From the NCBI RefSeq assembly GCF_029633865.1, contig NC_079214.1:26877724-26941723 (forward strand): 64,000 nt of DNA, read 5' to 3'. A program made the translations under genes and the position numbers. The stretch's first letter is position 1. Each line of letters starts with the position of its first letter. The notes beneath the pieces are model-generated. The model made no database searches, had not been told where the DNA came from, and saw only the letters and a list, made by a program, of their open reading frames with translations. Source of the DNA: Lampris incognitus. Its lineage: Eukaryota > Chordata > Actinopteri > Lampriformes > Lampridae. Of the stretch, positions 3,927 to 59,300 are shown piece by piece.

Positions 3927-3940
3927 GATAAATAGAAATG

Positions 3941-5483
3941 GAAAAAAGCAAGTTGCCGTTATAAATAATCACCTTCTCAGTGTTAGGCAGAGGTGAAGGT
4001 ATGGTTAGGTTTAAAAATGTGTTATCTTCAGCTTACTGACTGGTTTATTACCAGCAGAAAATGAGGGACTGTCAATGTTGACATTAGTCTGTGCCAGTCC
4101 TGCCATCAAAGTGCAGACTGAAAAAGTCTCAGCAGGAATATTCCTCTGGCTTCATCATGGACAACTAACCTGACATGAGCCCCCCCCCTCCCCCGTCTTT
4201 GTGGTCACTTCCTGTTTCATTCACACCCATTCCATCTTAGCTCAATGTAAATCAGTAGTCACCTCCGACCACCCAGGCAGAGGTATTTTTAGCAAGTCGT
4301 CAGTGCACCAACAAGTGGCAGCACCAAACCTTGTGTAAGCATGCAGAGAGCAGGGCAAAATAAGACAGATAGCTGCTTCAGGGGACACTGAGAAGCACAA
4401 TTTCCCCATCCTGTATCTGCACCATCTCTCTTCTCTTCTCTCCTCTCCTCTCCTGAGATGTAGCAAAGCCAAGAATAGCTATGCTCTAAACAGACCGAGA
4501 CAAATGGGACTGTGTCTGCAGAGAAGCACATCTTGTACAAAACTGCCTAATGTGAAAGTACAACGCTGGAGGTTTTTTTTTTGCATCCACATAAAATGCA
4601 AATGACAATGGCATCAAATCTCTGAAGATTTTACCCACCTGTTCTTCTTTCCATCTTCTCTAGCAATCTTCCCTGATAAACATATTTTATAGGACGTATG
4701 CTACATACAAAGGAGTGTTTTGATAATGTTCTCTTAGGTGCTGCATTACACAATATTGCCTCATACATAACGCTTATGAATCCTCGTGAAAAAGATAAAC
4801 AAAATCCTCGGTAATACATTCTCTCATACTCGTTCGTGTGGGTGACAGCCATTATCATGATAACTTAAGGCTGTTCACACTTGAGCAAACCCCAGTAGTT
4901 TGAGTCAGTGTTGGACTACAGTATAATGTCAGTGAAGGGATTATGCATGGTGGATTTTTTTTTTTGATTTTGTTTTTATGATTGTCTTCTCCAAACTGAA
5001 CAAGAATGTACGTGGCATGATGAATTTCATCGACAGTTACTCAGTGGGTGCTATATTTTAAATTACATAAAGTACTAAGGAGGGGACAGTGGAATGGAAA
5101 ACCATTGTTATTAATTGATTAACATTGTTTTGGCATGAAAGTGGATTTGATTTATGTGAGACAGCTGCCGGGCCCTCTGGGTAATTGAATGTGATTCCTC
5201 TACCACCATGGCAATGACTTCCGGGTGCTGTTGGATGCACGTTAGCTGTGGAAGATGTTCATAAAGACGGATTGATAATGAAATGCTTGTCTGTGTTTGT
5301 TTATCATTGTCGTTGCCTTCATTACGCCGAAACTATGAGAAAAATATATCGGTGGACAAGATTTCAGAAATTATGTAATTTTTTTTTTAAAGCTCAAAAA
5401 ATATATTATTAAATGGTCAAAAATCCAATTAAAAAAGAATCAGATGGTTTTCAATAAAAACTTCATGTTTTTTTTTTCCCCTT
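3941..5483. other. Intergenic stretch, nothing identified
   Basis: No gene, RNA gene or dispersed repeat recognised. It holds short homopolymer runs (for example near 4575 and 4957) and a C-rich tract near 4180-4195. Confidence 0.5.
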
Positions 5484-5498
5484 TGGAACTGACAGCAC

Positions 5499-5945
<447 letters not shown>

Positions 5946-5960
5946 TGGAACTGACAGCAC

Positions 5961-6694
5961 CACATCCATGGCAAATATATAGACAAACACCATAGTCCAA
6001 CAAGTGTTAATTTTCAATGAAGTTGGTGACAATTCATTCAATTGCAGCAGAAGTGATGCAGTAGAAGAAGCAACACATCATGCTTTAAAACAAAAAGGCA
6101 GCCGACAGAACAACAAACCATTAACAGGCCCACAGGCTTCTGCTATGAGTACATGTATAAATAACAAGTACTCAATTAATCAAGAGAAAATAATAAAATG
6201 AAAAGTATCACTGACGAAGGTAGTGGGTGGCTCGCACGACCATCTAATCCATCAGGATAGGAAACAACCATATCTTGGAGTCACAAACTGTGCAGCCAGT
6301 ATGTGCAAAACATGACATCAGAGCTACTTTATGTTCAGTCAAGTGTTGTCAGTGTTTTCAGGTTGCTAAGCCACTGTTGTCTAGCTACATTCTCAAACTA
6401 GGTCCTAGGTGCTTTATGTACCTCCACCATAGATGCCCATGTGAGTGTAGACTGTGCTTCACCTGAGAGCCGTTCATCATATACACAGTACATGGGCCTG
6501 CCCTGCATATTCATTTCATTTTGTCAAGTGAAACAGGCTGTATGGAGGGAAAATTCAAGCTGGGCAATATTTCACACAGGTGTGGAGTCTGTTAACCTTA
6601 CTGTTTGGGTTTTAGAGAAGAATGTATTTTTTCTGATGAGAGCCAACGCTTACACAAGATTTTTTTTGCATTCAGACTGAGGTGAGAGGCCGAG
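5961..6694. other. Region upstream of the piggyBac-USP50 gene
   Basis: No gene or known repeat seen. The promoter and any 5' untranslated exon should lie here or further left, but I see no convincing TATA box or CpG-rich block. A splice-acceptor-like tract (ttttttttgcattcag, ending 6675) would allow an upstream noncoding exon to join before the ATG at 6695. Confidence 0.35.
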
Positions 6695-7959
6695 ATGAGG
6701 GCCGAGGCTTTGTCGACGCAGGAGTGCGCCTGGACGTTGGAAGAGTGCCATCTAGCGGAGAAGATGAATGTAGCTACCCAGAGGGACAGCCTCTGTCTTC
6801 CAAACTTCTTCAGAGCCAGAAAAGTAAAATCTTTTACGAGGACTCGGACGCGCCCTACCAACCAGATTCACTTCACGGCACGAGAGCTTCTGCTGGAGCT
6901 CATGGACCAAAGAGCCATTCAGGAGCTGGCCAAGAGGGCTGGTGTCGCCAAAGCAACAGCTGGCCGTCAATCCTACAGTCAGGGCAGGGAACAGAGCACA
7001 AATCTCTCAGAGGAGCAGTATGCTGATGCCTTAACGTGGCTCTCCATTGTCCTCCAGAGTGGTCTCGCTTCAGGAGAAGATTGTGGCTCAGGCACTGACG
7101 TGGGCCTACACCTGAACGGATGGCAAAATGTGCTGAAGAAAAGCAGTTTCCAGGCAAGCCTTCTGTCTCTCTCCAGACTGGAGGACAAAGACAAAATGGA
7201 GGCCCTGTCTGCCTTCTACAGCCATCTCACCAGGCGCTATCAGGCCCTATACACACCTGGACAACACCTGGCAGTGAAGAAATACTGTCTTTCATACCAA
7301 CAGACCTCCTCCCCTCTTTACCTTGCCCTGCTCTGTGATACCAGCTCAGGCTTCATCTGTAACATGTACCTGTACTCTCCAGAGCAGCTCCAGAAGGCTA
7401 GTAAGACCCCTGTAGTTGAACAGGTGGTCAGCCAGCTCTTGAGGCCCTACCATAGCCGTGGGTACCTGGTTCAGTTACACAACTCTGCTTGGATGGAGGG
7501 AAAACTTACAGAGCTCTTCTCTGAGTGGGGGGTCAATATCTATTTTGAAGCTTCCATCAAGAGGCCAGTTGTGGACAACGCATCTTGTTCTTCTGCACCC
7601 AGGCTGCCGTGTCAGCACCAGTGGGCTCCTGTATTGCAGGAGGAACCGCCGTCTCAGCTTTTGGCCCATTTCCAGGGCTGGACAGGGCCTGCTCTGTTTC
7701 CTAAATCGAACCCGAGTAACCCTGTGGTGGAGATCTTCCTCCCAGGGCTCTGGGCTACACTGCATATAATCTACATCAACACGTTTGTTCTCCACACTTT
7801 GCAGAACCAGGAGTCATGTAAGAGAACTCGCCTGAGGGAGTTTACCAGATTTCTGGCCTCCCAACTGGCCATGGAAAATTGTGTGGCTGTAACCAACCTG
7901 TCAGGGCCCCACACCAGCTCATCTCCAGATACTTATGTGACAACTCATACTGAGCAAAG
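6695..7959 (+). CDS. usp50: Exon 1: piggyBac-derived (PGBD-like) domain
   Basis: One open exon of 421 codons plus two bases. The order of blocks follows DDE_Tnp_1_7 (piggyBac) proteins: N-terminal [28 protein letters not shown] leading into YTPGQHLAV, a [14 protein letters not shown] strand pair, [14 protein letters not shown], then a late helix INTFVLHTL and [12 protein letters not shown]. At the positions where active piggyBac transposases carry Asp, I align Lys195 and His262, so transposition chemistry is probably lost; the third Asp is not clear by eye. No terminal inverted repeats or TTAA duplication were noticed around the exon. The donor is CAAAG/GTCAGA. Confidence 0.75.
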
Positions 7960-8658
7960 GTCAGACTTAATGTTTATCGACATATTTTTTTTAAATACCT
8001 TGAACAAGTGATATAGAAGTAAAATCAAAGGTTTTGTACAGTGACTATACAGATAGGCTTCCATTTTCAAGTCATTTACTGGCTCTAAAGAAAAGTGCAA
8101 TCAAAGTTATTTGTTCAAATCTAACATTATGTGAGGCAGTGAGGTCAGTTTTTTTTTTTGGTCTATAGTTGTGTCTTAGGATCTACAGGGCAAACTCAGA
8201 CAAGTGTGTCCAGGTAATGAAACCTGAAGAGGACAAATTGGTAACACTTTATTTTAGGGGGTCAGAAATTACCTTGTAATTTCCTAGTAATAAGGTGATA
8301 GTTTTTACAGGTAATTTTACAGCTAACCCTAAGCCTAACCCTAAACCCTAACTCTAACCCTGACTCTAACCCTAACCCAAATTACAAGGTAATTTCAACC
8401 TTATTTCTAAGAAATTACGTGATAATTACAACCTTATTACTAGGTAATTTCCAACCCCCTCCGACCCCCTAAAATAAAGTGTAACCGATGAATTTGTTTG
8501 CAGGTTGCAGGGGGGAAGGCAGCCTGGGGTGTGTGGACTGGTTAACTCTGGCAACTCCTGTTACTTAAACGCTGTGTTACAGTGTCTCTGCTCTACTGTG
8601 CCTCTTGTGGACTACTTCCTGAGTAAGAACACACAGCAAGAGTTGGCAAAGTAAGTTC

Positions 8659-8742
<84 letters not shown>

Positions 8743-11700
8743 TGTGTGTGTGTGTGATTGTCATTTATTCTGTTTCAGCAAGATAGATCAGTAAATGTCA
8801 GCATCCCCTGCTGCTGATATTTACAAATCACATTATGCCTCAGGAAATCAGAAATAACACACATAACAAAACCTTTAAACCAAATGCTATTTAAATGGTG
8901 TTAAGTGCTTAAAGTACTCTGCTTCCCACAGGAGATAACAACTGAAATCATCATCTGCCTCTATCTAACCTCTGTCCAGGCGAAAGCGTGTGGTGGCTGG
9001 GGTATTTGGTCGCCTGCTTGAGGAGATGTGGCTGGGCCAAAAGTCCAGCTGTGCCCCTCTGGAGATGAAGTTTGTGGTGTGCTCCCTCCAACCCCAGTTC
9101 GACAACGACTTCCAGCAGGATGCCCAGGAGCTGCTGCTCTTCCTCCTCAATGCACTCCATGACGACCTGAAAGAGGTGAAGTTGACAGAACATCATCCAC
9201 ACTGACTTTTTCTGTATTTCCATGTCAGTTCACTGTACAGCCAAGATCGTAACGTGTCAAAGGAGGTAGCATTGTGATTGTTTTTTAGGGCGGGAGAGAA
9301 CTTGAGTGTTGGTGCGTGTGTTTGTATGTAGAAGGGTGACATGCGTCAGATACACTCCTTGACTTGGCGGCTGAGACAGGACAAAAATAGAAACTATCCC
9401 TGCACCACGGGAGGGCCCACCATCATCTCACATCTGTTTGAGGGCCAACTGAGCTATGTGACAATCTGCACTGACTGTGGTTACCAGTCATACAGCACAC
9501 AAGACTTCACCACGCTGTCCCTTCCAATACCTCCAGACATCAGGGACAAGTGCTCCCTTCAGGTGATTGCATGGTGGCCCATAGCTCGAATTCACTCACT
9601 GCTATCATGCTTAGACTCTATGTGTGTGTGAGAATACACCAGGCATCATACTACGTTGTTATTCTGTGACTTTTAGTCAAGTCCCGTCTGGCCTTTATTC
9701 TCTCTGTATGTCTGTGTCTTCCACAGGATTGCATCTCTCTGTTTTTTCGGCAGAGTATGCTGACCGGGGGAAACCAGATGCTGTGTTCAGAATGTGGTAC
9801 GAGGAGAGACACAACCATCCTCACCTCCTTGGTCAAACCCCCTGAGATCCTCATGCTACATCTAAAACGGTGGGTATATCCAACAGCTTTTAACAAGGCA
9901 TATTGGTTTTGTGTCAAATAATGCACATAAATCCCCAGAGCCCCCTCAGATGTAAGTGTGTTTTTAATCCTATAGGTTAACACTTTAATTTGTGAGATGA
10001 TGTGCTTTGACGGGCCAACATCTTCTTTGCAGTTTTGCCTATCAAGGGAAGAAAAAGGTGAAACTGAGGACTAATGTCTTGTTCTCACTGGAGGAACTTG
10101 ACCTCACCCCCTTCCTATCCTGCCCTTCTGCACAGTGCAGCACATACTCTCTCTACGCTGTAGTGGTGAGTACATGCAGAAACACACAAACGCAGAGCAG
10201 CCTCCCTATTTTGTTTCCTTTTTTTTTCTAAATCCAACGTCATCTTACAAATACCATTAATTCTTGTGTCCTATGACAGTGCGCAATTTGACTCATATTC
10301 ACTTTTGTCTCTGAGAGCCACCCACATCTGTGCTGGTGCACCCATGTACCACTAACAAGAGAGAGTGATTATACTACTACAAAAATATATAGTTAATTTA
10401 CATATTAATGGTCATATGAATTCATTGGCGTAAGTTTCACTTGAACATTGGGGGGGGGACATTTAGCGGGGGGTTAGGTGGTCCTCCCACTGGAAATTTT
10501 GAGCATCACACATTTAATTTCCTGCATTCTGGTGAATTTGTATGCACCAATTTGCTCTTTTTCTACATCAATTTATTGTGGAAATGTCTTATTTATGTAA
10601 AAGAAAAACAACTTTCTAGGTAATTCTCTCATCTTACTCTCTTTTTTGCACCAAAAAAGCACCGGATATCTTCTGTTACTTTCCTCTTGCTCATGTTGAC
10701 TCTGAATGAAAGTAGTAGATGCATTTGAACTAAGACAATACCCTTGGCACAAATTGGTTTGTAGATGTACCTGTTATGTTATCTCATGTGCCCGAAATTA
10801 TCAGTTCAAGTTCATTTAAGCTAACATAAACGTCTACGGGCTACTGTTAGCAAGCGCTAGCTAGCTAGTTCGTGAGGGGGTCTGAACTGATAACCCCAAA
10901 CACAAGTTATAAACTAGATAAGGCTATAATTCATCCGGAAATACGTAAGAAAATCTAACTCAGAAACCCCAAAGGTAAGACAGGGTGGTGTACTGGGCTA
11001 GACGAGCAAGCTAGCTAGCTACGTTACTTACACTTGCTTACACGATCATTAATGCTCCGGTCTCCTGGTTGTCAGGAGCAACTGCAAGACAGCAACGAGG
11101 TCGGCAATACCAGTGGCAAGGTTAAAATGGTATGGTCCAAGCATAGGGGTGTATGAAATCGTTGGAAAACAAGTATGAATGGCATTTTAAGTAGTTCGAC
11201 TGTCTGTGTTGTTATTTTACCTTTTTTGGCGAGGGAGTTAACATTATCATTCATGATATATTTTTTTGGGGGGCCAAATTCACCTCTTCTAAATATTGAG
11301 GGGGACATGTGGCGTTTGACGGAGACAACTGTAAGTGTCCTGAAGAACTGACCTGTTTGTCCTATGCCACAGCAATAACGCACACTCTCAAGTTAACTAG
11401 TATTCCCATTCTAGTATTTTTTCGGGCTATGTGATGAAGTATGGCAAATGATTATCCATTTCTTTTAGAACGCTTTCCTATATAGGCTGTAAACCTTGCA
11501 AGTATTGTGTGGCACAACAAATTAGATTAAAAAAATGATGCATCTTGCAAAAAATAAGTTGGAGTTAGAGGAATACATTGTGAATTACTAAATAATACTG
11601 TTAACTTTGTTGTTTTGTGGAAAGTTTGTAGGGCTACAAAAATCTGAGACAGCCTCCAGAACACCCTCTCAACTGACTTATTCTGAAAGACATAAACTTG

Positions 11701-47700: not shown

Positions 47701-47938
47701 CTCGTGTTGTTTTTGAGTGCAGTCTTCCCTTAACTCTTCCCTTTCCCAGAACCATATAGGACACCTTGACATGGGCCACTATACAGCTCTGTGCCACAAC
47801 CCCCTGACCCGCCGCTGGCATTGGTTTGATGACGCCACCATCAGAGAAGTGCAAGACTACTTTATCCAGTCCCCCAATGCCTACATTCTCCTCTATAGCC
47901 GCAAGCCCTTCCATAGTCCCCAGATCAGTGGGCTCTGA
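6695..47938 (+). CDS. usp50: Predicted piggyBac-derived domain fused to USP50-like ubiquitin protease (7 exons)
   Basis: Seven exons (6695-7959, 8504-8650, 8980-9175, 9332-9562, 9727-9869, 10033-10165, 47750-47938) join through GT-AG junctions with matching phases into 2,304 nt, or 767 residues. Residues 1-421 resemble a piggyBac transposase-derived domain: an [11 protein letters not shown] entry near 60, [12 protein letters not shown] near 187-197, [18 protein letters not shown], and INTFVLHTL followed by [12 protein letters not shown]. Residues 434-767 are a USP domain of the USP8/USP50 type: [12 protein letters not shown] with catalytic Cys441, QQDAQELL, zinc-ribbon pairs C582/C585 and C633/C636, [20 protein letters not shown] with His715, and WFDD with Asp732. 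USP enzymes cleave ubiquitin from proteins; human USP50 has been described as inactive, whereas all three catalytic residues appear present here. The start is the ATG at 6695, because a TGA lies in frame at 6683. The gene converges on usp8, as USP50 and USP8 do in human. Assignment to USP50 rests on domain type plus that neighbour. Confidence 0.75.
8240..8486. mobile_element. MITE with telomere-like core in intron 1
   Basis: Terminal inverted repeats: GGTAACACTTTATTTTAGGG at the left end and its complement, ending CTAAAATAAAGTGTAACC, at the right. Inner arms also pair (ACCTTGTAATTTCCTAGTAA with its near-complement). The core holds about ten degenerate CCCTAA units. Abundant families with these ends occur in fish genomes. 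It lies between exons 1 and 2 of the piggyBac-USP50 gene. Confidence 0.85.
8504..8650 (+). CDS. usp50: Exon 2: USP Cys box
   Basis: The acceptor is TTTGTTTGCAG at 8503. The exon begins with one base that completes the Arg codon left by exon 1, then encodes [18 protein letters not shown], the catalytic cysteine box. It ends two bases into a codon before GTAAGT. Confidence 0.88.
8659..8757. repeat. (TG)n microsatellite in intron 2
   Basis: Nearly pure TG run with one TA interruption, eight bases downstream of the exon 2 splice donor. Confidence 0.95.
8980..9175 (+). CDS. usp50: Exon 3: [11 protein letters not shown] block
   Basis: Acceptor CTCTGTCCAG. Encodes [12 protein letters not shown] and [20 protein letters not shown], the USP helix around the conserved QQDAxE motif. 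Ends in phase 0 at AAAGAG/GTGAAG. Confidence 0.88.
9332..9562 (+). CDS. usp50: Exon 4: USP first zinc-ribbon pair
   Basis: 77 codons, phase 0 at both ends. Contains SHLFEGQL and [20 protein letters not shown], the first CxxC pair of the USP finger. The donor is CCTTCAG/GTGATT. Confidence 0.88.
9727..9869 (+). CDS. usp50: Exon 5: USP second zinc-ribbon pair
   Basis: 143 nt. Encodes [11 protein letters not shown] (second CxxC) and [10 protein letters not shown], ending two bases into the Arg codon of the HLKRF motif. The length equals the matching usp8 exon at 51980-52122. Confidence 0.88.
10033..10165 (+). CDS. usp50: Exon 6: USP LKRF block
   Basis: 133 nt, after the acceptor TTCTTTGCAG. Encodes the rest of [18 protein letters not shown] through TYSLYAVV. 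The length equals the matching usp8 exon at 51560-51692. The donor GTGAGT opens the 37.6-kb intron. Confidence 0.88.
10166..12116. other. Start of intron 6, no element identified
   Basis: AT-rich intronic sequence. Two G-rich patches (near 10450-10490, and near 11265-11310 in which GGGGGGCC is followed by GAGGGGGACATGTGG) and several GCTAGC-rich runs suggest a decayed repeat, but I cannot name it. No coding potential seen. Confidence 0.45.
12117..12185. repeat. (TA)n microsatellite, left half of insertion site
   Basis: Pure AT/TA run abutting the left LTR. A second TA run follows the right LTR at 20709, so the retrotransposon probably landed in one TA microsatellite. Confidence 0.93.
12186..12970 (-). 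repeat. 3' LTR of element A
   Basis: 785 bp, TGTAA...TTACA, almost identical to 19923-20707. The AATAAA signals in the shared AT-rich part (TCAATAAAATT) are on the + strand; the element itself reads on the - strand. Confidence 0.93.
12971..12984 (-). promoter_or_regulatory. Polypurine tract of element A
   Basis: On the minus strand AAAGAAGGGGTAGA directly precedes the 3' LTR, the expected position for the plus-strand DNA primer. Confidence 0.75.
13182..17477 (-). CDS. Element A pol: protease, reverse transcriptase, RNase H, integrase
   Basis: An uninterrupted 1,431-codon frame. An aspartic protease site, [11 protein letters not shown], lies near residue 101. The RT includes [12 protein letters not shown] and the active-site YLDD at 555-558. 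RNase H starts at [17 protein letters not shown]. The integrase has [12 protein letters not shown] with CEQCERC (zinc-binding HHCC), then DFL, ADQGRNF and TTERFNR carrying the D, D, E catalytic residues. It overlaps the end of gag by about 148 nt in the -1 frame, so expression by -1 ribosomal frameshifting is likely. The first ATG at 17477 may not be the real N-terminus, since a fusion with Gag is expected. Confidence 0.93.
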   Translation of the reverse strand: MLPVWEARAYSPSMSSGAPRSQSTLDSPTPACDLRGEHHAPLNAAFKRLEPVVTGATMGKQQDPPLQVSNTDDGVEDIPIVGPRNEGEVEVNGLKCRALIDSGSQVTSITHGYWCNHPDLHGQKLRPSKIPIAGAAGQDVPYSGVLRIKLKVLGTEFQSVPAFVVPDSEYRSSVPLLVGTNVVRAARRHLQATYGEQYLQRVKESHPEWYTALLETGDTEYTGADDMVGPAVYTGRKIRILGGKEMDLMCKIKAAPQRKTYTALIEGHASIRLPEDLMVAKVLADVKKGCAPVRVMNLSQQTVTIKPHTQLASAFLVDSVVDFSATEQGCHQNEENKETYLCLNQVVSSGGVDISEAAVENEHQRALLKELVERNMGVFSQHSMDYGHTKTVQHEIPLVDSKPFRLPYRKIPPSQWQDVRKLLTEMETAGVIRPSKSPYASPVVIVTKKDGSLRLCIDYRRLNACSTRDAFPLPRIEETLEALGQAQYFSTLDLTSGYWQVEVAEQDKHKTAFSTPMGLFEANRMPFGLQNAPSTFQRLMTCCFGDLNFTHLLIYLDDLIIFSKTFDEHLERLQLVFDRLKEHGLKLKPSKCQLVRKEVHYLGHLVSVEGIRTDPEKISRVKDWARPTNRKEVLQFLGFTRYYRRFVCSYSTLAAPLYRLTAGDPRKKRRGGKKRLVPDPPFVWTDECEEAFQSLRERLTTAPVLGYPDYSLPFLLQTDASGEGLGAVLAQVQDGVERVIAYGSRGLSPAETRYPAHKLEFLALKWAVTDKFYDHLYGRKFSVQTDNNPLKYVMSSAKLDATGQRWVSRLSAFDFDVQYRRGQNNANADALSRLSNQEVTQVLQTCPQLVSAKVQRCVEEQSPQQLESSASEGPEHQEPLSHTLGESYQDVGMDSLPALTKQEIRAGQKEDAVIGPVLHFKSLNQKPSRSERIGGGRQVCLLLKEWRRLLVKDGIMYRQVQDRQRGVVEQLVLPERFNTSVKSALHDDSGHLGFERTLQMIRERFYWPKMFQEIKAWCEQCERCCLRKTPTAGLRAPLVSIHSSAPMELVCVDFLTLEKSKGGIENVLIVTDHFSRYAQAYPTKDQKACTVAKVLWKNFFCRFGFPAKLHADQGRNFESTVVKELCKCTGVTKTHTTPYHPQGNGTTERFNRTLIDMLGTLEPHLKPRWHEYVDAMTHAYNCTKHDSTGYTPYYLMFGRHPRLPVDLIFGLSTTKEPCEYSEYVQTLHDCLSEAYTQANQASRHAKEQQKRYYDQKAKSQGFSPGDRVLVKICRVEGRQKLGDRWESRPYIVVKEQPSIPVYVVQTEDGEKERVVHCNLLTQCMFLPVERAGAATSAGVESDMGDWEVDGMEVMGEEAEKVSQGGEEDINVSDTNALDGPSLRRNPQRTRCPPKKLSYESLVVRSKEEQQKIERGWTLWQRAIAEKVAGHV
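17330..19357 (-). pseudogene. Element A gag, one in-frame stop
   Basis: The frame from the ATG at 19357 is rich in Pro, Gln, Ser and Thr and reaches a TGA at 18140-18142. It then continues in the same frame ([20 protein letters not shown]) through a capsid-like region to the zinc knuckle [14 protein letters not shown] at about 17465-17506, and ends at 17330. One nonsense base separates it from an intact Gag of about 675 residues; read-through of TGA is an alternative reading. Confidence 0.82.
19902..19919 (-). other. tRNA-His primer-binding site of element A
   Basis: On the minus strand TGGTGCCGTGACCCGGAT begins three bases after the 5' LTR. Its complement matches the CCA-tailed 3' end of vertebrate tRNA-His with one mismatch that I can see. 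Confidence 0.78.
19923..20707 (-). repeat. 5' LTR of element A
   Basis: 785 bp with the same termini as the left copy. Differences seen by eye include the T-run interrupted by C near 20154 and single changes near 20346-20349, 20536 and 20607. Confidence 0.93.
20709..20738. repeat. (TA)n microsatellite, right half of insertion site
   Basis: Short pure AT run immediately right of element A, matching the TA run on its left. Confidence 0.9.
20872..20985 (-). repeat. LTR-end fragment, inverted relative to 22075-22183
   Basis: The reverse complement of this segment (ending GAATTCGTTACA) matches the + strand sequence at 22075-22183 (ending GAATTCGCTACA) almost throughout, including a GGGTTCGCGTCCC block that looks like a pol III B box. 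It is the outer arm of an inverted structure enclosing the RT fragment. Confidence 0.75.
20986..21970 (+). pseudogene. Ty3/gypsy reverse-transcriptase fragment, inverted copy
   Basis: Encodes the protease-RT linker and RT palm: [40 protein letters not shown], then [18 protein letters not shown] and [10 protein letters not shown]. It has a TAG at about 21517 (Trp in the relative), a TGA at about 21823 (Arg in the relative) and an 18-bp deletion after LLVHA. It is the opposite-strand near-copy of 23330-24320, from element B. Confidence 0.85.
22032..22183 (+). repeat. Short LTR-like segment
   Basis: Begins TGTAAC and ends GCTACA, followed at once by a primer-binding-site-like sequence. Only the last ~110 bp have a partner (20872-20985, inverted), so the left boundary is tentative. 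Confidence 0.5.
22184..22202 (+). other. tRNA-Leu-like primer-binding site at strand-switch junction
   Basis: TTGGTGTCAGAAGTGGGAT follows the LTR-like end. Its complement resembles the 3' end of a tRNA-Leu with CCA. The same bases on the minus strand read as integrase codons (GPYPTSDTN), so the junction lies inside a shared stretch. Confidence 0.55.
22202..23300 (-). pseudogene. Element B RNase H and truncated integrase
   Basis: RNase H is recognisable from [18 protein letters not shown] through [14 protein letters not shown] and [12 protein letters not shown]. The integrase HHCC module follows ([18 protein letters not shown] with CCDACTAKK), then [10 protein letters not shown] with the first catalytic Asp, where homology ends. 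The two parts are in different frames, so at least one frameshift lies near 22400. Confidence 0.82.
23318..24754 (-). pseudogene. Element B protease and reverse transcriptase
   Basis: A retroviral-type protease site [12 protein letters not shown] near the start at 24754 is followed by a proline-rich linker and RT motifs [39 protein letters not shown] and [14 protein letters not shown] interrupts it at about 23790 (after QWFS), and the active-site box reads YLND instead of YLDD, so the enzyme would be inactive even without the stop. Confidence 0.87.
24835..26085 (-). pseudogene. Element B gag
   Basis: The N-terminal half (down to about 25445) is Ala/Pro/Thr/Ser-rich with tandem, imperfect repeats. 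The C-terminal half (25464-24835) carries [34 protein letters not shown] and the CCHC knuckle [14 protein letters not shown]. The two halves are in different frames with a short overlap, consistent with one frameshift near 25450. Confidence 0.82.
26138..26462 (-). repeat. Putative 5' LTR of element B
   Basis: On the minus strand it starts TGTAGCAAAG, contains AATAAAGGAGC, ends near TTCACCA, and is followed by TGGGGTCGAAAGTGGGAT, a degenerate form of the PBS seen at 22184. No second copy in the window confirms the boundaries. Confidence 0.5.
26463..26520. repeat. Inverted repeat (hairpin)
   Basis: TATATCCGTGAAGACGTTT, a spacer of about 17 bases (CGCCCCTTGGATGAG region), then the exact complement AAACGTCTTCACGGATATA. 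It sits at the outer edge of element B's LTR and resembles a widespread fish repeat end rather than a bacterial terminator. Confidence 0.85.
26660..27826 (+). pseudogene. Ty3/gypsy integrase remnant
   Basis: Core integrase motifs [24 protein letters not shown] and [14 protein letters not shown] give the D, D, E triad, with Ile-Glu-Leu in place of the usual Glu-Arg-Phe. A downstream frame (27443-27826) has [18 protein letters not shown] and [12 protein letters not shown], the C-terminal integrase region. The zinc module upstream is scrambled and there is a stop at 27408. Protease and RT of this family are absent. Confidence 0.8.
28194..28418 (+). repeat. Putative 3' LTR of the integrase remnant
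   Basis: A purine tract AGAGAGAGGAGA (28182-28193) is followed by TGTTGTGTTCTG; a plausible end is CACCCTACA at 28418. A copy of the sequence just after this end occurs at about 46630, so the right boundary is uncertain. Confidence 0.4.
28415..28490 (+). repeat. Dispersed ~75-bp repeat, copy 1
   Basis: The block starting ACAATTCCTTTGTAAGGAAA and running to AAATGCCTTCACTTGAAAA recurs at 46629-46702 in the same orientation. Confidence 0.8.
28560..29673 (+). pseudogene. Ty3/gypsy pol, part 1 (element C): protease and RT
   Basis: Protease core [13 protein letters not shown] at about 28710-28750. RT motifs follow from [20 protein letters not shown] through [30 protein letters not shown] and [23 protein letters not shown] at 29530 and frame changes show decay. 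The frame stops at KICVTE because a BEL/Pao LTR begins at 29679; it resumes at 43514. Confidence 0.87.
29674..29678 (+). repeat. Target-site duplication of BEL element, left
   Basis: CAGAG here and at 43514-43518 flank the BEL/Pao insertion; the match can be extended to six bases (ACAGAG). Confidence 0.75.
29679..29885 (+). repeat. BEL 5' LTR, first part
   Basis: Matches 42872-43078 of the intact right LTR closely, from TGTAAATGACCCATATAA to CGGCAGAACAAA, where element E begins. Confidence 0.9.
29886..30051 (+). repeat. Left LTR of element E, 5'-truncated
   Basis: From GGTGTAACTTTAAGGG to CTAACTCCACA it matches 33201-33365 with very few differences. The first ~50 bp of the LTR, present on the right copy, are absent. 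A PBS-like CGGTGACCCCGACGTGAT follows, complementary to the tRNA-Trp 3' end with the first base changed. Confidence 0.85.
30089..30874 (+). CDS. Element E gag
   Basis: Open frame of 261 codons. The capsid-like region has [39 protein letters not shown] and [19 protein letters not shown]. It ends in an unusual zinc knuckle, [18 protein letters not shown] (C-x2-H-x9-C-x3-C). Homologous to element D gag throughout. Confidence 0.85.
   Translation: MSDNEDAGNNAAAVPAPDAGANNMAIANASIYAATVKLPDFWQHNPRPWFQHVEAQFQLRGITQDATQYFHVVAALDASTTARAMTLLEAPPAAGKYDARKTFLLKLFELSELEKADRLLSLNGLGDGKPSELMEKMLSVLGSADPAFLFTHIFLRQLPAPVRTALASSPLAASKDYRSLAAEADRVFLANRQQFVHALLPHQTTPPPPVYDYMDTAAAVTARRQPDDGLCYYHARFGAKAKQCRKPCSYRVQGNAKAGAR
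30880..32822 (+). pseudogene. Element E pol, frameshifted and internally deleted
   Basis: Protease [16 protein letters not shown] near 30940; RT from [20 protein letters not shown] through [20 protein letters not shown] and [18 protein letters not shown]. After RNase H onset ([18 protein letters not shown]) the frame shifts near 32310. The new frame reads [20 protein letters not shown], then jumps at about 32455 directly to [20 protein letters not shown], the end of integrase, so most of RNase H and the catalytic integrase core are deleted. Confidence 0.87.
33152..33365 (+). repeat. Right LTR of element E
   Basis: Starts TGTGTGGTGACCC after a G-rich tract (TGGGGGGGGCC) and ends CTCCACA. About 214 bp. 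Confidence 0.85.
33366..33791 (+). repeat. BEL 5' LTR, second part
   Basis: Continues the BEL LTR from ACACGATGGTCATGTTCGC to GGAATGCTAAA, matching 43092-43513. Confidence 0.9.
33792..34490 (+). other. BEL 5' leader
   Basis: Untranslated leader between the BEL LTR and its gag, interrupted at 34490 by element D. No coding sequence recognised. Confidence 0.6.
34491..34665 (+). repeat. Left LTR of element D
   Basis: TGTGGCGG...CCACA. Contains GAGGAATAAACATC, with an AATAAA signal. The following TTGGTGACCCCGAATTGAA resembles a tRNA-Trp primer-binding site over its first 12 bases. Confidence 0.92.
34686..35444 (+). CDS. Element D gag
   Basis: Open from the ATG at 34686 after the primer-binding site. 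It shows [59 protein letters not shown] and the C-x2-H-x9-C-x3-C knuckle [18 protein letters not shown]. Close homologue of element E gag. Confidence 0.87.
35450..38237 (+). pseudogene. Element D pol: protease, RT, RNase H, integrase
   Basis: Protease [13 protein letters not shown] near 35515; RT with [20 protein letters not shown] and [17 protein letters not shown]. Small deletions near 36308 and 36350 break the RT frame, and a TAG at 36711 follows YEALRLK. The rest is open: RNase H ([37 protein letters not shown]) and integrase with zinc module ([16 protein letters not shown]) and the D, D, E residues in [18 protein letters not shown] and [13 protein letters not shown] at 38235 precedes the last C-terminal stretch. 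Confidence 0.9.
38591..38765 (+). repeat. Right LTR of element D
   Basis: Same 175 bp as the left LTR; directly preceded by a G15-type polypurine tract (38574-38588) and CTG. Confidence 0.92.
38780..41190 (+). pseudogene. BEL/Pao gag-protease
   Basis: Begins at the ATG at 38780 ([20 protein letters not shown]); a frameshift near 38870 moves the frame, after which it is open to 41190. Order: a charged coiled coil ([20 protein letters not shown] onward, and [18 protein letters not shown] near 39575-39625), the BEL-type capsid region ([37 protein letters not shown]), two zinc knuckles ([14 protein letters not shown], then [15 protein letters not shown]), and the aspartic protease [16 protein letters not shown]. 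Confidence 0.88.
41187..42386 (+). pseudogene. BEL/Pao reverse transcriptase, deleted core
   Basis: The N-terminal RT region ([55 protein letters not shown]) ends with a stop at 41769. It resumes in another frame ([13 protein letters not shown], then [18 protein letters not shown] and [20 protein letters not shown]). The segment with the catalytic YxDD box is missing between them. The end ([20 protein letters not shown]) is the start of RNase H. Confidence 0.85.
42387..42692 (+). pseudogene. BEL/Pao RNase H to C-terminal domain, integrase deleted
   Basis: [20 protein letters not shown] is the BEL RNase H signature. The frame then jumps to [20 protein letters not shown], the C-terminal domain that normally follows integrase, so integrase has been removed in one deletion. 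Confidence 0.83.
42872..43513 (+). repeat. BEL 3' LTR, intact
   Basis: 642 bp from TGTAAATGACCC to GGAATGCTAAA, preceded by a TTGGTGGGAG purine tract and followed by the CAGAG target duplication. Confidence 0.9.
43514..44806 (+). pseudogene. Ty3/gypsy pol, part 2 (element C): RT end, RNase H, integrase start
   Basis: Continues element [21 protein letters not shown] and [20 protein letters not shown], a TAA at 43711, then RNase H ([39 protein letters not shown]) and the integrase zinc module ([23 protein letters not shown]) with [20 protein letters not shown] carrying the first catalytic Asp. A frame change lies near 44565. Homology ends abruptly after VIRKLKAMF at about 44806. Confidence 0.88.
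44880..45900 (-). mobile_element. Non-LTR retrotransposon (Rex1/L2-like) 3' fragment
   Basis: Minus strand. The 3' tail is CAAGTCAAGTCAAGTTTATTTA on the + strand, typical of these LINEs. The C-terminal RT part (45077-45610) reads [40 protein letters not shown] and [20 protein letters not shown]. Upstream RT codons continue with frame breaks to about 45900 ([16 protein letters not shown]). Confidence 0.82.
45901..46628. other. Intronic stretch, nothing identified
   Basis: AT-rich intron sequence of the piggyBac-USP50 gene; no gene or nameable repeat recognised. Confidence 0.45.
46629..46702 (+). repeat. Dispersed ~75-bp repeat, copy 2
   Basis: Direct-orientation copy of 28415-28490, from ACAATTCCTTTGTAAGGAAA to CCTTCACTTGAAAA with one or two changes. 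Confidence 0.8.
46703..47380 (+). mobile_element. L1/Tx1-like LINE C-terminal remnant
   Basis: Codons resembling the post-RT region of fish Tx1/L1 LINEs: [40 protein letters not shown] and [11 protein letters not shown], followed by further matching but stop-broken sequence. No intact frame. Confidence 0.6.
47750..47938 (+). CDS. usp50: Exon 7: USP His and Asp boxes, stop
   Basis: Acceptor CTTCCCTTTCCCAG. Phase 0, continuing exon 6 ([20 protein letters not shown]). Carries the catalytic His715 and Asp732 (WHWFDDATI), [10 protein letters not shown], and ends at the TGA at 47936-47938. It is separated from exon 6 by 37,584 bases. Confidence 0.87.
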   Translation, partial: NHIGHLDMGHYTALCHNPLTRRWHWFDDATIREVQDYFIQSPNAYILLYSRKPFHSPQISGL

Positions 47939-50157: not shown

Positions 50158-50316
50158 TCACAGAGAAGAATAAAACAAGATGTAGGCAGCAGAGGACTTG
50201 ACAGAAGACGTGGAGATTTCAGACACCTCATGGTCATCGAACTTGAACCAGCGCTGTTTATGGGCATTCTTACAGTAGGCTGTGTAATGGCCTCCATCCA
50301 ATCCCCCGTAGTGATT
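50158..50316 (-). CDS. usp8: usp8 last exon: His and Asp boxes
   Basis: 52 codons plus [23 protein letters not shown] then [13 protein letters not shown] and AYILFYSSL, the usual USP8 C-terminus. Confidence 0.95.
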
Positions 50317-53300
50317 CTGGTTGTGGCGAAGAAGATGATCAATGTCAGAGAGCTTACCAATTTTTGAGTGGTTTAAAAAGGTGCAATGAGAGTACTGACA
50401 GAGTACCAACTAATATTTACTGATAATTTCCTATTTAAATGATCAAGTCATCTAATTACAGTGCTGGCAAATGTTATAGACTCAAGCACACACACACACA
50501 CATCTATATATATATATATATATATGAATCATTCATTACTTCAACACCTAATGAAAAATCCCTTAATTGCCTGATTATAAACTAATAAAAACAACCCAAA
50601 ACTGTTGCTCTTATCCTACCTCTCTTTACATTCAATATGGTACACTGTACCTTATAAACTAACCAATACTCCCATAGAAGTCCACTGAAAATTTCTCAAG
50701 AGGTAATTCAATTCAAAGTCCTCACTTCATGGCAAGTTCTACTTTAATACAATTCCATTTAAAGTAAGTGCACTTTTCTTTTACAGTTGTAATACAGTTG
50801 TAATTACATTATAAATAATGAATCTACTACTACTACTACTTTCGGCTGTTCCCGTTAGGGGTCGCCACAGTGGATCATCCGTTTCCATCTCTTCCTGTCC
50901 TCTGCATCTTCCTCTGTCACACCAGCCACCTACATGTCCTCTCTCACCACATCCATAAACCTCCTCTCTGGCCTTCCCCTTTTCCATCTTCCCTGGCAGC
51001 TCCATATTCAGCATCCTTCTCCTAATATATCCAGCATCTCTCCTCCGCATATATCCAAGCCATCTCAATCTTTTCTCTCATGCTTTGTCTCCAAACCGTC
51101 CAACCTGAGCTGTCCCTCTAATATACTTGTTCCTAATCCTGTCCTTCTTCGTCACTCCCAATGAAAATCTGAGCATCTTCAACTCTGCCACCTCCAGCTC
51201 TGCCTCCTCTCTTTTCATCAGTGCCACTGTCTCCAGACCATATAACATAGCTGGTCTCACTACCATCTTGTATTATGAACATTATGAATAATGAATGCCA
51301 CACAAAAATTACAATGTCCCTGAAAATGTATAATGACTGACCACAAATGTATTGGATGCTGAGCAGGAAGGTTTTATGGATATATGAAACCAGGGGTGGT
51401 AAATTCTTTGTTGTCTGTAGCGATTTCATTCTTTAGTTTTCCTATAGTTAACTCTTCCATTGCTCAAATATAACCAATTTTCATTAGATGCTTCAGCATT
51501 CTATACATGTTCCATGTTGATGAACTCTCCCGTTATCCCACACCGAAGCTGCTACTTACAGAAACTCCATAAAGGCTGTATCTCTTAAGGTTTTGCCTGG
51601 GTCCAATGACATACTGGGTCAGGTCCAGACTGTCGAGGGGGAAGTCTACAGTTGTCTGCAGCTTCTGCTTCCATCGGCCCTCGTAGGAGAATCTGCTCAG
51701 ACAAACACACACAAATACACATGCACACAGCGTCAGAAAAGCAGAGTAACACGGGAAGAAATCAGAATCTAGATTGGACCAGAAAAAGTTAACTAGTTAC
51801 CATCAACCAATGATACTCTACGACTGTAACAATATTTCTCATAATAGTCAATATTCTGGCTGTTTTTCACAGTAATGGCTGCTGCCTTCTCGATGAATAC
51901 TTGCACAAGCCAGCTGCAGCCATTCAACCTATGCTATTTCAAGTAAATGACACTTTAAAGTAAAAAAATGACTACAGACCGTTTTAAGTGCACCAGGACA
52001 ATGGGGGGGACCTTCCAGATCTCCAATTTCTTTGTGGAGTCACGATGGGCCTTGCAGTGTCTGCAGAACACCTTGTTGTTGTCAGTCAGCCTCTCCTCCT
52101 TGGAGAATAGCTTCAGGCAGTCCTAAAACATTCAATAATACACAGGATCTGATGTTAAATCTCTTATGCTGATATTTTTTGGGGGCTTCACACAAAAAAC
52201 CCAATTCATCCACCTTCACACACTTATTCCTGCATTCAAGAAAAGAGCACCAGGCAATGGCATCAGAAATCTCCACAAACCTGGTTCCAAATGGCTTGGC
52301 TACCAAACCGCAACATCCAGTAAGGATGCCAATGTGAGTATGTGTATCCCCACTCTTGATATTAACAACTGTAATCTAATGGGGCGGCTGACACTTCTGG
52401 CTTGAAACAGACCGCTCAGCATTTCAGAACTCCAAAGACCTACTAGCAAACAACTGTACTCTCTACCAAATTGCGAAAAACAATGAGTACACCAATCTGA
52501 GTATTTCACTGAGGTTATCAAGTTGGCATCTTTCATTCCAAATATTTTGTTGAATGCTGAGTTCTGGCATCCTAGAAAAAAACAAAAACAAAAAAACCCC
52601 ACCTAATTTAACTCAAAAGCTCAAAACCTTTCCAAGATGGAAACTATATAATAACCATAACCATCTATAATCATAATCGTAATTAGTAATTCTGTCTTGC
52701 AATAGGAATACTGTATATAAGTGCGTGTGCATGTGAATACATGTGTCAATGTGAAGGAATGTGTTGTGCTCTTTTGCAGGACTTGAAATTACTTGACATT
52801 TCTTCACAAAGGATAAAATCCTTGCAGCTTTAAGTGTGTGCACATGTGTGTGCTTGATTTAAGATGGAAAATATCTTGGTTTCACTGCTGCCCCAGAGAT
52901 GCAGAAACAATCAGGAACAACTGCATGTGTTCTTCATGTGCTATCCCTGTTGCAGACGGCCAGTGATAAGGTTGAAAATCGGTGAATTTACCCTTTAATG
53001 TGATGTCAGACCAACCTGCAGGGAGCACTTGCTGGTCGAGGCCAAGGGCAGGGACAGGTACATGAAGGTCTCAAAGGTGCGTGACTTGCGGTGGCAGGTG
53101 AGACACTGTACTGTGGACTTAAACTGTCCCTGAAACAGTGCTACAATAATGGACTCATTAAGCAGCTTGTGTTTGCTCCAGGCCAGGTCTGCTGCCTGCT
53201 GGTCATCCAGGTGGTCGTTGTCCTCTTCCTTGTAACGTTTCCTGTTGTCCGCCTGACACCAGAAAAGAAATACAAACATATAGCACCTTCTGCAACTTAG

Positions 53301-56300
53301 GTATGAGCAAACCCCTGCCTTCACCATGGCTACTGTGCTTGGTCTGAAACAGCTGAGATGGCCTTTATTTGTTGAAAATATCTGACATAATACTGAGGTG
53401 GTCAGCAAAATACCAAGAAGTAGAGATTAAATTGCCTCGAGCATTACACATTGCACATTGTCCAAAGTACATTTCTTATGCTGTATTCTACAGATAGTCT
53501 TTCTGTTCCCATGCAGTTTAACCACATTTGGTTCACTTCCTGTATGACAGACAGAAAGATAAAACAGCAGTGTTTCCCATACATAAGTGTTACACAGGTG
53601 AGGCCCTCACCCCCTCCTACCTCAGCACAGACTACCACCACAAGTATATTTCAGACCTGTGGGAAACACTAAACAGGTGCATTAATAGTTCATTAATTAA
53701 TATTCAATTAGTTTGGACCTTAAGAAATAAAGTGGTCTGACACTATACCAGTCTGATGGCAGAATAGCAATAACAGATAACAAAAGAGCAATGATCAGGG
53801 GTGCTGCTAAGTAGAGAAGGGGAAATTACTTTCATGGGGCCCCAACCAATAAGGAGCCCTTTAGAAAGGTATCATGATCTACTACTACTACTACTACTAC
53901 TTTCGGCTGCTCCCATTAGGGATCGCCACAGCGGATCATCCGTTTCCATCTCCTCCCGTCCTCTGCATCTTCCTCTGTCACACCAGCCACCTGCATCACC
54001 ACATCCATAAACCTCCTCTTTGGCCTTCCTCTTTTCCATCTCCCCTGGCAGCTCCATATTCAGCATCCTTCTCCCAATATACCCAGCATCTCTCCTCCAC
54101 ACGTCCAAGCCATCTCAATCTTGCCTCTCTTGGTTTGTCACCAAACTGTCCAACTTGAGCTGTCCCTCTAATATACTTGTTCCTAATCCTGTCCTTCTCC
54201 TAGCATCTTCAACTCTGCCACCTCCAGCTCTGCCTCCTGTCTTTACATCAGTGCCACTGTCTCCAAACCATATAACATAGCTCAGGGGTGGCTAACCGTG
54301 CCATGTGTATGCAGGTTTTCATTCCAGCTGGACTCCGCACCAGGTGATTTCACTGATCAGCAACCCTTCAACCAAAGAGGAAGAATGTATCAGTGAAATC
54401 ACCTGGAGTGGAGTCGGGTTGGAATAAAAACCTGCATACACATAGCTCTCCATGGCACATGGTTAGCCACTGCTGACATAGCTGGTCTCACTACCATCTT
54501 GTAAACCTTCCCTTTAACTCTTGCTGGTACCCTTCTGTCGCAAATAACTCCTGACACTCTTCTCCACCCACTCCACCCTGCCTGCACTCTCTTCTTCACC
54601 TCTCTTCTGCACTCCCCGTTACTTTGGACAGTTGACCCCAAGTATTTAAACTCATACGCCTTCGTCACTTCTATTCCTTGCATCCTCACCATTCCGCTGT
54701 CCTCCCTCTCATTCACCCATATGTGTTCTGTCTTGCTCCTACTGATTTTCATTCCTCTTCTCTCCAGTGCATACCTCAACCCCTCCAGGCTCTCCTCAAC
54801 CTGCACCCTACTCTCGCTACAGATCACAATGTCATCCACAAACATATTCCATGGAGACTCCTGCCTGATCTTGTCTGTCAACCTGTCCATCATCACTGAA
54901 AACAAGAAAGGGCTCAGAGCCAATCCTTGATGTCATCCCACCTCCACCTTGAACCCATCTGTCATTCCAACCGCACACCTCACCACTATCACACTTCCCT
55001 CATACATATCCTGCACCACTACGTATATACTTCTCTACAACTCCCGACTTCCTCAGACAATACCACACCTCCTCTCTCAGCACCCTGGCATATGCTTTCT
55101 CTAAATCCACAAAGACATAGTGTAACTCCTTCTGGCCTTCTCTATACTTCTCAATTAACATTCTCAAAGCAAACATCATATCTGTAGTGCTCTTTCATGG
55201 CATGAAACCATACTGCTGCTCACGAATCGTCACCTTTCCTCTTAACCTAGCTTCTATTACTCTTTCCCATATCTTCTTGAAAATCGGTACCAGTATACTT
55301 CTTCTCCATTCCTCAGGCATCCTCTCACTTTCCAAGATTGTGTTAAACAATCTAGATAAAAACTCCACTGCCATCTCTCCTAAACATCTCCATGCCTCCA
55401 CAGGTATGTCATCTGGACCAACAGCCTTTCCACTCTTCATCCTCTTCATAGCTGCCCTCAGTTCCTCCTTGCTAATCCATAGCACTTCCTGATTCACTAT
55501 CCCCACATCATCCAACCTTCTCTCTCACTCATTTTCTTCATTCATCATTTAAAAGACTAATCAAATTCAAGAGTAAAACACAGCTGATGTGTACTACTTC
55601 AACAAAAACACCAGTAAGAGCCATTCAGAGTATTAGGCTTAATTTCCCCCCGGCCTGGTATCACTGGACACATTAGAGAAAATGTCTTCGGACTGAAGTG
55701 GGACCGGGTCACAGTAGAATGTAATCCCTGCTCCAGTTTTAGCAAAGGAGGAAGATAACTTGAGTTTGAATGTATCAAATATCCTCTATTTTGCCTTTTT
55801 CAAAGTCATCTTTCAGATGGGCACGAAGCTAGCATAGGAGAAGTCAGTACAGGCAATGAGACATGTTTAGGGTCCACGTGCATAAGGGTTCGGACAAGAG
55901 CGTCAGACCAGACAAATGCAGAACACCAGTCACATTGCTGCAGAGCGAACAGCCACACACAACTATTTACTTACGCTCTAATTTGCTATTACAATGACAC
56001 CCAATGTAATAGAAAGAAGGAAAATTATAAAAAGGCCAAATGTTGATAATTAAAAGGAAAATGTGCAATAAGGTGCAGAGCTAGAGGGCACTGTCTGCCT
56101 TGGTTTAAAATAAATAAATTACTTGATACTAAATGACTTAGTATTTCATTCAGTGAGATCTTCTTTTTTTTTTTTACTTTTTGCTATTGCTGTCAAAATG
56201 AACACATTCATTTTTTAGATAAATTAGAAATCTTTAACACGTTAAAAAAAAATAACAGCTGCATTTTGTTTACTTCCTGTGGTAGCTATACCAGGTGGTG

Positions 56301-59300
56301 TCACAGGCATATCTCTCCTCTGGGATGGATCCCCCGGAGGACATCAGAGCGCACTCAATAGAGGAAATTCATCTTCCATGGCTTTGCACAGAGGAATGAC
56401 AGTGGAATACATCTGCACTACTTCTTGGTCTTACCCCTGTTCTTTCTTTCATTTTTATCTGTGGGATGTCTCCCGTTTTTCTATGATTCATTCTGTATGG
56501 AGTGTTCTGCAAGAGGGATATCAGGGGATTTGGTTGTGCGCTCTCCCTCCTTGTCGGTGCAGGGAGAGCTATCTTTTTTCCCTTACTCTGCTCCTCACTG
56601 GAGTGTTACAGTGCAAAACCTTCATCTCCACTTTCTCACAGCAGTAGGCTTTATTTGTTCCCAGCCCTTCTCCCCTCACGGAGAATATTAGATAACCTGC
56701 TATGCTGTGCCACTGGGGCGCATATGGGGTTCTGTCATGAACACGTAATGAACGTTGTGAATTCACTTCACAACACTTTAAAATTCAACTGGCACTTGAA
56801 CATGGAACATTTTTTTTGTTTTCTTAATTATTGCATACAATAAAGCAGGGCTCTAGATTGTGACCATTTAGTCGCATTTTGCAGCTAGGTTTGGCGTCAG
56901 TGTGAGTAAATTTTAAACCTAGGTGCACTGGTGCGACTTGCAATATAACCGTGGTTTTTTTTAATCATGTGAAAACCAGTAAGAGGAGAACTTGTGTGTG
57001 AATGAGTGGGCTTGGTGTATGTGTGTGTGTACACATGTGAGAGAGAGGGGTTACTGCGAGGCTCTCGTGATGTGACCAAAATAAAGCAGCATTGTGGGGG
57101 GGAAATCGCACATGGGATGTCAGTCGCCACTCAGTAGGACTTGCTCTCGCTGTGAAACGAACAATGAATCAAACTATTGATTCATTTTTTTTTTTAAAAA
57201 AAGAAAAGACCCTCCGTCAGACCCTCCACCAACCCAAACTGATGACAGTTCAGACGAGGAAGCAGCAGGTCATGTGAAAGAGGCAAAGACGTATTCCTTC
57301 CGACAGGAATGGCTTGTGCAATATCCATGGCTGTGATTTAGCAAAGAAAAAGGCACCATGTACTGCATGTATTGTTCCCAGTGTGGGCCAACTTTTGCGG
57401 GGAAAACCAAGTTTGGTGACCCCTCGACCGACACTGCTATGTTCAAGCACGACACCATCTTTAAGCACAACAGCCTGAAGCACAAACTGTGTAGGGACAG
57501 GTGCACGGCTGGAAGTTCAGCATCTCGGCAAACGGCATCTGAAAGGCAGGCATCTGCAAATCGTTCTGCAGAAGAGGCCGAAATGAAAATAAAATTCAAT
57601 ACAGCGTACTACATTGCCAAAGAAGAGCTACCATTCACAAAATTCAAGGGTCACATAGACTTATTAAAAAAGAACAGAGTTGAAGTTAACCCCACGTACA
57701 GCAACAACAAGGCATGTGCCCAGTTTATTAGCGTGATAGCTGATACACTTAAAAAGAAGACAGGCAAAAGAATTAGCGGACTCCATGTATCTCTCATTCA
57801 TGATTGATGGCGACACAGGTGTGTAGACCAAGGAATACGAGATTGTGTATGCACGGCTCCTGCCGCAAGGGAGGCCAGTGAATGTTTTGATTGGCCACAT
57901 GGAAGTCCAGCACGCAAATGCTCAAGGTATGTAAGGAATTTGACTCCGGTTTGGCTCATTGTACTCGCACACAGAACACACAATCTTCAGAAATATACAC
58001 TAGGAATGACTATATACAGGTGAAACAGTTGTAAACAGGATATAGTGCAAAGAAGTGAAGGAGTGATGATATATAATGTAAAAAAGTATTACTTTATAGT
58101 AAGTAGGTGGTTATATGCAGTATAATACAGCTTTCAGATATGAGTGACATATTTATTGCACTCTATTACTAAAATATTTATTTGTAGGTACAGTGAGTAT
58201 TTTACTGTTCCAGGGTTATTGCAGTGCCACAGTGAGTTTGATGCCAAGGAGGCTGTACAGATGTGGTTAAGTCAAGGTAAAAGAGCTAGAAGGCCCAATT
58301 ACAAGGGTTGGCCCTTAGAGCCTCCTAGTTGTCCTCAGGGGGATATGCTCTAAACTACAGGGAAGGGAAGGAGAGGCATACTGTATGAGTTCAGTGTTTA
58401 CTTGTTTTGTTGTGGTTCTTGAGCTGTAATGACAGTAATGATACTGACCACATACCTTATGTTTACATTTATAAATGTATTATTTGGTGCCTATGTTTAC
58501 AAAAAACACTTTCGAGTTTACATTTTATTTACCTTATTGTTTTTTTTTTGCTCTTAAGCACTACCTCACTTTGTGACATTTAAAATAAAACAGCATATTG
58601 TTATTTCTGTAAATGGTCTATTTATTACCAAAGCATTTACCAGTAATACAGTTAAGACGGAAAAAATATCAATGTGTTGCGTTGCGTGTCGATTTAAGTG
58701 GTGCTCCTAAATTTTGTGCTGGTTCTTCTAAAATTTTCAGTAAGGAGCACAAGTGCTCCTAGTGGAAAAAGTTAGTCTGGAGCCCTGTAAATTATTGCCT
58801 TCTAAGCTGATTTCTAATTTTAATGGCCTTGATATTCAACTGGCACTTTAACATATAGGCCTGGGTTTTGTTATTATTTCCGTTAGTGCATATAATATGT
58901 CTTTCAAGCCGACAGTCAATTTTGATGGCCTTAATGGTTTTATTGGAAATCTGTAGATCACAGGAGAGAATCTGTGTTCATAGTTAAAAAGATGCTTTTA
59001 AACAATTGTATTTGAATTTAAATATACTTCCTTTGTGTTGATTCTAAGTTAATTATATGATTTTACATTTAGATATCCATTATTACAAGCCTCTGTCTTA
59101 AGAAGAAAATAAGGCAATTAATCGTGATTAATCACAGCAAATTATGCGACTAATTAGTTAATTTTTTTTAATCGATTGATAGCCCTACTTTTTACTTTTT
59201 GTTTACATTACATTACATTACAGACATTTAGCCGATGCTTTTATCCAAAGCGACTTACAATAAGTGCATTTAACGTAGGAAATCAGGAGAACTACTAGTC

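Follow-up and report, generated by a model that had tools for sequence, protein, structure and literature searches.

A domesticated piggyBac domain as the probable first coding exon of a USP50-type deubiquitinase gene in Lampris incognitus

Introduction

New regulators are known to have arisen from fusions between host genes and transposases. The deubiquitinase USP50 is commonly regarded as a pseudo-enzyme, and to our knowledge a piggyBac N-terminus is no part of USP50 or of its paralogue USP8. In the piggyBac fusions described in the papers drawn on here, the transposase lies at the 3′ end of the host gene, and human PGBD1, PGBD2 and PGBD3 each carry it in a single 3′ terminal exon (PMC3902484; this and the other papers identified below by PMC number are drawn on in excerpt). 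Here, we analyze 64,000 nucleotides of Lampris incognitus (contig NC_079214.1, forward-strand positions 26,877,724 to 26,941,723; hereafter "the window"), in which a piggyBac-derived exon probably opens the reading frame of a USP50-like gene, a fusion that had been proposed in a preliminary description made from the letters alone. If true, with a transposase opening the coding sequence of a deubiquitinase, capture would have run in the reverse direction and the partner would be of a new kind.

Results

Gene structure

Rebuilding the gene model from the sequence gave seven exons on the forward strand that form one frame of 2,304 nt including the stop, corresponding to 767 residues. All six introns are bounded by GT and AG, and the terminal stop is TGA. 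In positions of the window, the features are as follows:

6695..7959, + strand: coding exon 1, piggyBac-derived DDE_Tnp_1_7 domain (PF13843 match, piggyBac/piggyBat alignment, coding signal)
7960..8503, + strand: intron 1, phase 2, GT..AG (gene model, donor scoring)
8504..8650, + strand: exon 2, USP Cys box with N436 and C441 (gene model, UCH and PDB matches)
8980..9175, + strand: exon 3, USP domain (gene model, USP8 comparison)
9332..9562, + strand: exon 4, USP domain with the first CxxC, 582-585 (gene model, USP8 comparison)
9727..9869, + strand: exon 5, USP domain with the second CxxC, 633-636 (gene model, USP8 comparison)
10033..10165, + strand: exon 6, USP domain (gene model, USP8 comparison)
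47750..47938, + strand: exon 7, USP His box and Asp pair (H715, D732, D733), stop TGA (gene model)

Exon 1 is open from the ATG at 6695 to 7959 (1,265 nt, i.e., 421 codons plus two bases), with an in-frame TGA upstream at 6683-6685. The junction runs from CAAAG/GTCAGA to TTTGTTTGCAG/G, and exon 2, beginning at 8504, adds one base ahead of the USP frame. The donor of intron 1 (AAG/GTCAGA) scored 6.8 bits, the six donors of the model spanning 6.5 to 9.4. The preliminary description had given the same exon coordinates, the same length and end of exon 1, the single base contributed by exon 2 before the Cys box frame, and a seven-exon total of 2,304 nt, divisible by three with one terminal stop; the rebuilt model reproduced all of these. 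It had been silent on the 37.6 kb that separate exon 6 from exon 7 (intron 10166-47749).

Joining of exon 1 to the deubiquitinase exons

We then asked how well the coding signal agrees with this junction. The in-frame codon log-likelihood of exon 1 was 127.5 bits, compared to at most 29.8 bits for the other five frames. This signal ceases at the donor at 7959, where the following 48 in-frame bases score -4.2 bits and positions 7960-8008 are 27% GC; the stretch from 7959 to the stop at 8009-8011 looks intronic. GC content at third codon positions was similar in exon 1 (0.60) and the USP exons (0.65), and the flanking non-coding DNA has a GC content of 0.35-0.41. The proposal that exon 1 and the USP part fit together in frame was upheld, the coding signal ending at the very donor that had been suggested.

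The first methionine past the junction is residue 487, which is downstream of the Cys box, so the protein must begin in an earlier coding exon that ends at a phase-2 donor. We scanned for first exons running from an ATG to a phase-2 donor, with at least 15 codons and a donor score of at least 6.5. On the forward strand of positions 1-8503, three candidates of 421, 23 and 16 codons were obtained, exon 1 being the sole long one.

These data also bear on the possibility that the locus holds two genes: exon 1 would then be a domesticated piggyBac-derived gene of a single exon, with its end at the stop at 8011, and another, unseen first coding exon would begin USP50. The exon 1 frame indeed reads on for 49 bases beyond the donor, being open as far as the stop at 8009-8011, and the transposase part of human PGBD1, PGBD2 and PGBD3 is also one uninterrupted exon (PMC3902484), so a free-standing single-exon piggyBac-derived gene is possible. 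Yet the coding signal ceases at 7959 rather than at 8011, exon 2 requires an ATG-bearing phase-2 partner that exon 1 fits, and the other ATG-started candidates found on this part of the strand are no longer than 23 and 16 codons. We consider the two-gene explanation unlikely, although it is the likeliest of the rivals. Alternatively, USP50 may have a first exon of its own and the piggyBac exon may be an alternative start used in some tissues, much as CSB-PGBD3 exists beside full-length CSB. CSB and CSB-PGBD3 do come from one gene (PMC3459987, PMC3902484), but the scan of 1-8503 gave no other long first coding exon, with only 6.7 kb of the window lying upstream of exon 1, and alternative products of this kind seem decidedly improbable.

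Immediately 5′ of the start codon, the acceptor-like TTTTTTTTGCATTCAG ending at 6675 was considered as the entry to a further coding exon upstream of 6695, which is ruled out in frame by the TGA at 6683. The acceptor-like tract (6660-6675) possibly marks an intron in the 5′ untranslated region.

The piggyBac-derived exon

The resemblance of exon 1 to PGBD proteins noted in the preliminary description was borne out by the hidden Markov model search suggested there as a check. Exon 1 matched Pfam DDE_Tnp_1_7 (PF13843) over residues 144-264 with 38.7 bits (gathering cut-off 22.4) and an E-value of 9.6e-10, and the domain was found again within the joined protein (E 3.5e-9). As controls, a shuffled copy and a reversed copy of exon 1, one of each, matched 0 Pfam families. 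When searched alone in Pfam, the first 145 and the last 160 residues gave no DDE_Tnp match, so that the ends of exon 1 are placed solely by collinearity in a forced alignment. A profile built from the two sequences of piggyBac and piggyBat matched exon 1 mainly over residues 208-263, with an E-value of 5.1e-8 for a database of one sequence, and adds little to the Pfam result. No significant match to exon 1 was returned by phmmer from the PDB (best E 0.2). Relatives were likewise absent from non-vertebrate collections, i.e., phage records (no match), viral contigs (3 pattern stretches, none a relative of exon 1) and prokaryote genomes (20 pattern stretches, again none). Within the window, no second copy of exon 1 was detected, nothing exceeding a 16-base match. 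Judged by the Pfam homology, exon 1 is piggyBac-derived.

We aligned exon 1 with piggyBac (PDB 6x67) and piggyBat (9c0f) and found that D268, D346 and D447 of piggyBac correspond to K195, H262 and a gap, respectively; by this alignment, which is uncertain beyond residue 264, the canonical catalytic aspartates of an active piggyBac transposase are not in place in exon 1. A C-terminal cysteine-rich domain was also sought, and no CxxC was present in the three forward frames of 7900-8503 or in the 421 residues of exon 1. Among the 7 inverted pairs of repeats in 5800-8520, none flanks exon 1, and the best TTAA-flanked inverted pair around it matches at 8 of 13 positions, and 99 of 200 random placements did as well or better. 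Because no inverted repeats were found around it, exon 1 does not have the look of a fresh insertion. From its sequence, exon 1 no longer resembles a mobile element.

To assess how long such a frame would stay open by chance, we simulated neutral drift of exon 1 with substitutions only and 2000 runs per distance. At 0.02 substitutions per site, 726 of the 2000 runs were still free of stops; the count dropped to 144 at 0.05, 17 at 0.1, 4 at 0.15 and 1 at 0.2, and was 0 at both 0.3 and 0.5. Exon 1 itself is far diverged from piggyBac and piggyBat, the two piggyBac sequences compared. Since its 421 codons are free of stops despite the lost catalytic residues, the simulation argues that selection has probably maintained the frame. 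Together, these results suggest selection for something other than transposition.

The same results speak to whether exon 1 is a decaying piggyBac copy that is open and in frame by accident, with no functional fusion. Such an explanation would suit the weak homology and the restriction of the data to one species. However, with 17 of 2000 runs still open at 0.1 substitutions per site, 421 stop-free codons are unlikely beyond roughly that distance, yet exon 1 has moved far from piggyBac and piggyBat and is without the canonical catalytic residues; no terminal repeats were found around the exon, and the in-frame codon signal is strong. Accidental preservation is thus highly improbable in our estimation.

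Apart from the matched domain, exon 1 carries a basic stretch at residues 40-53, and residues 75-91 (window 6917-6967) resemble a LacI-type helix-turn-helix, although this match (E 0.1) is not significant and lies below the Pfam cut-off. Both are compatible with nucleic-acid binding and do not demonstrate it. Another match below the cut-off, to Pns11_12 at residues 17-100 (window 6743-6994; E 0.13 with exon 1 and 0.015 with the first 145 residues), is probably due to chance.

The deubiquitinase part

The remainder of the joined protein contains a complete USP domain, matching the UCH family with an E-value of 4.7e-59 over profile positions 1-254 of 254. Among the best 60 of 98 matches in the PDB, this half is nearest to USP8 (8xpn; E 2.7e-70). 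Asn436, Cys441, His715 and the Asp732-Asp733 pair are all kept, with C441, H715, D732 and D733 standing opposite the corresponding residues of USP8; the protein has the UCH domain, the Cys and His boxes and the acidic third residue of a USP deubiquitinase. A neighboring gene is informative in this respect:

~50158..60245, - strand: catalytic exons of USP8, tail-to-tail with the USP50-like gene, with five matching introns by eye

The five introns of the USP8 catalytic domain, read by eye, correspond in place and phase to introns 2-6 of the USP50-like gene. Ahead of the Cys-box exon, the intron is of phase 2 in the USP50-like gene and also in USP8, where this was judged by eye from the open frame and the AG just before 60245; the Cys-box exon of USP8 extends further 5′ than its counterpart. 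The gene is therefore a USP8 paralogue adjoining USP8, and the tail-to-tail arrangement and common intron phases make USP50 its likely name. In human, too, USP8 and USP50 lie tail-to-tail. The USP50-type identity given in the preliminary description is thus corroborated by the UCH match, by the closeness to USP8 and by the adjoining USP8 with its matching introns, and the downstream gene is likely a USP8/USP50-type deubiquitinase.

As to activity, the C-terminus of human USP50 may carry FDD, but for the human protein we follow the published account. In the excerpts of that account, human USP50 lacks the Asp-Asp pair (PMC10867860), while USP50-mediated deubiquitination of ASC has been described (PMC9978379), which runs counter to an inactive human USP50. 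Because D732 and D733 are kept, unlike in human USP50 as given in PMC10867860, USP50 may be active in this lineage, and on its residues the USP50-type enzyme is probably active.

Other features of the introns

Within intron 1, positions 8237-8489 contain an element resembling a miniature inverted-repeat transposable element, with 30-nt terminal inverted repeats that are 90% complementary and enclose telomere-like CTAACCC runs. The last intron (10166-47749) holds many retroelement-like frames, yet the last USP exon is intact; by eye, several of these are Gypsy-like pol/gag frames (e.g., minus-strand 13182-17573), and the frame at 38863-41190 is BEL-like. Rfam and tRNA scans of the window gave 0 matches.

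Discussion

We propose that a USP50-type deubiquitinase gene, itself a USP8 paralogue, owes its present first coding exon to the capture, long ago, of a piggyBac-type transposase gene upstream of it. Exon 1 would supply the start codon and possibly the promoter, and the transcript would be spliced from 7959 to 8504. The transposase fold would no longer cut DNA and may act as an N-terminal adaptor that is nuclear, binds DNA or a partner, or dimerizes, and that would bring a working deubiquitinase to particular targets. A transposase fold missing its catalytic residues, on a probably active deubiquitinase, is most simply seen as an adaptor for localization, DNA or partner binding, or dimerization. 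As a whole, the explanation we favor is that a domesticated piggyBac domain opens the coding sequence of a probably active USP50-type enzyme and acts as its N-terminal adaptor, and we hold it to be probable, with substantial room for doubt.

Several observations weigh against this explanation. At the splice sites, the donor of exon 1 carries C at +3 and ranks second weakest of the six in the model; a donor at 7817 within the exon 1 frame scores higher (7.42 versus 6.8), although it is of phase 1, and further donors outscoring that at 7959 sit past the stop. The acceptor is a tandem one (8500-8510, GCAG GTTGCAG), whose second AG, at 8510, lies 7 bases further on, so that splicing there would disrupt the frame. 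By chance alone, a total length divisible by three would arise about 1 time in 3, and so would a phase match; neither amounts to proof. Applied to the whole window, the first-exon scan gives 11 candidates on the forward strand and 26 on the other. Among the minus-strand candidates are three that span 661-842 codons from one shared start and belong by their coordinates to a retroelement frame; since this retroelement, too, combines long frames and phase-2 donors, such a combination does not decide the matter. Regarding the fold, a single-sequence AlphaFold model of exon 1 was useless (mean predicted local distance difference test score, pLDDT, 32.8), and as significant homology is confined to residues 144-264, the third aspartate cannot be read with certainty. 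Human PGBD5 has been reported to induce transposition (PMC4625184) and lacks three of the four catalytic aspartates (PMC3902484), so that the loss of canonical aspartates in exon 1 does not prove inactivity. Finally, the fusion gene model is known from the genomic sequence of one species alone.

How the adaptor might find its targets can be considered further. In a more specific version, the fusion would be an old and widely conserved fish gene in which the N-terminal transposase, its catalytic residues lost, guides a catalytically competent USP50 to chromatin, perhaps to sites that stem from piggyBac ends, making it a sequence-targeted deubiquitinase. We regard this version as quite unlikely. 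PGBD5 apparently binds neither DNA nor chromatin, according to the excerpted text of PMC3902484, and DNA binding by the exon 1 domain should therefore not be assumed. The fusion, if real, would also bear on USP50 itself, whose original job would become testable in a lineage that has retained the catalytic residues and acquired a targeting domain.

No fusion of piggyBac with USP50, or of DDE_Tnp_1_7 with UCH, was found in the open-licence PMC literature, which is not proof of its absence from print, and the main text of PMC12062965, which names host-transposase fusions, contains none of deubiquitin, ubiquitin-specific and UCH. In SETMAR and KRABINER, as here, a transposase domain has been recruited into a host gene (PMC12062965), but in SETMAR the partner of the Mariner transposon is a SET methyltransferase (PMC12062965) rather than a deubiquitinase. 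PGBD5 of chordates shares with exon 1 a domesticated piggyBac domain from which most catalytic aspartates are gone (three of four; PMC3902484); its domain is spread over 7 exons and is not described in the excerpts as joined to another enzyme (PMC3902484), whereas here one exon precedes the USP part. With USP50 and USP8, the likeness lies in the complete USP domain, the best PDB match to USP8 and the introns matching those of the adjoining USP8, and the difference in the aspartate pair, which human USP50 is stated to lack (PMC10867860) and of which the USP50-like protein has both D732 and D733.

The closest parallel is CSB-PGBD3 of primates, in which a host protein is also spliced to a piggyBac-derived domain. 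There, however, an alternative exon at the 3′ end carries the transposase and encodes the C-terminal half (PMC3902484), whereas in the USP50-like gene the transposase would come first and form the N-terminus; CSB-PGBD3 has a single D-to-N change in its catalytic motif (PMC3902484), whereas exon 1 has no catalytic Asp in place; and the partner in the proposed USP50-like fusion is a deubiquitinase. Provisionally, pending transcripts and conservation, joining piggyBac to a host protein is thus the known part of this locus, and the transposase-first order and the deubiquitinase partner are the new ones.
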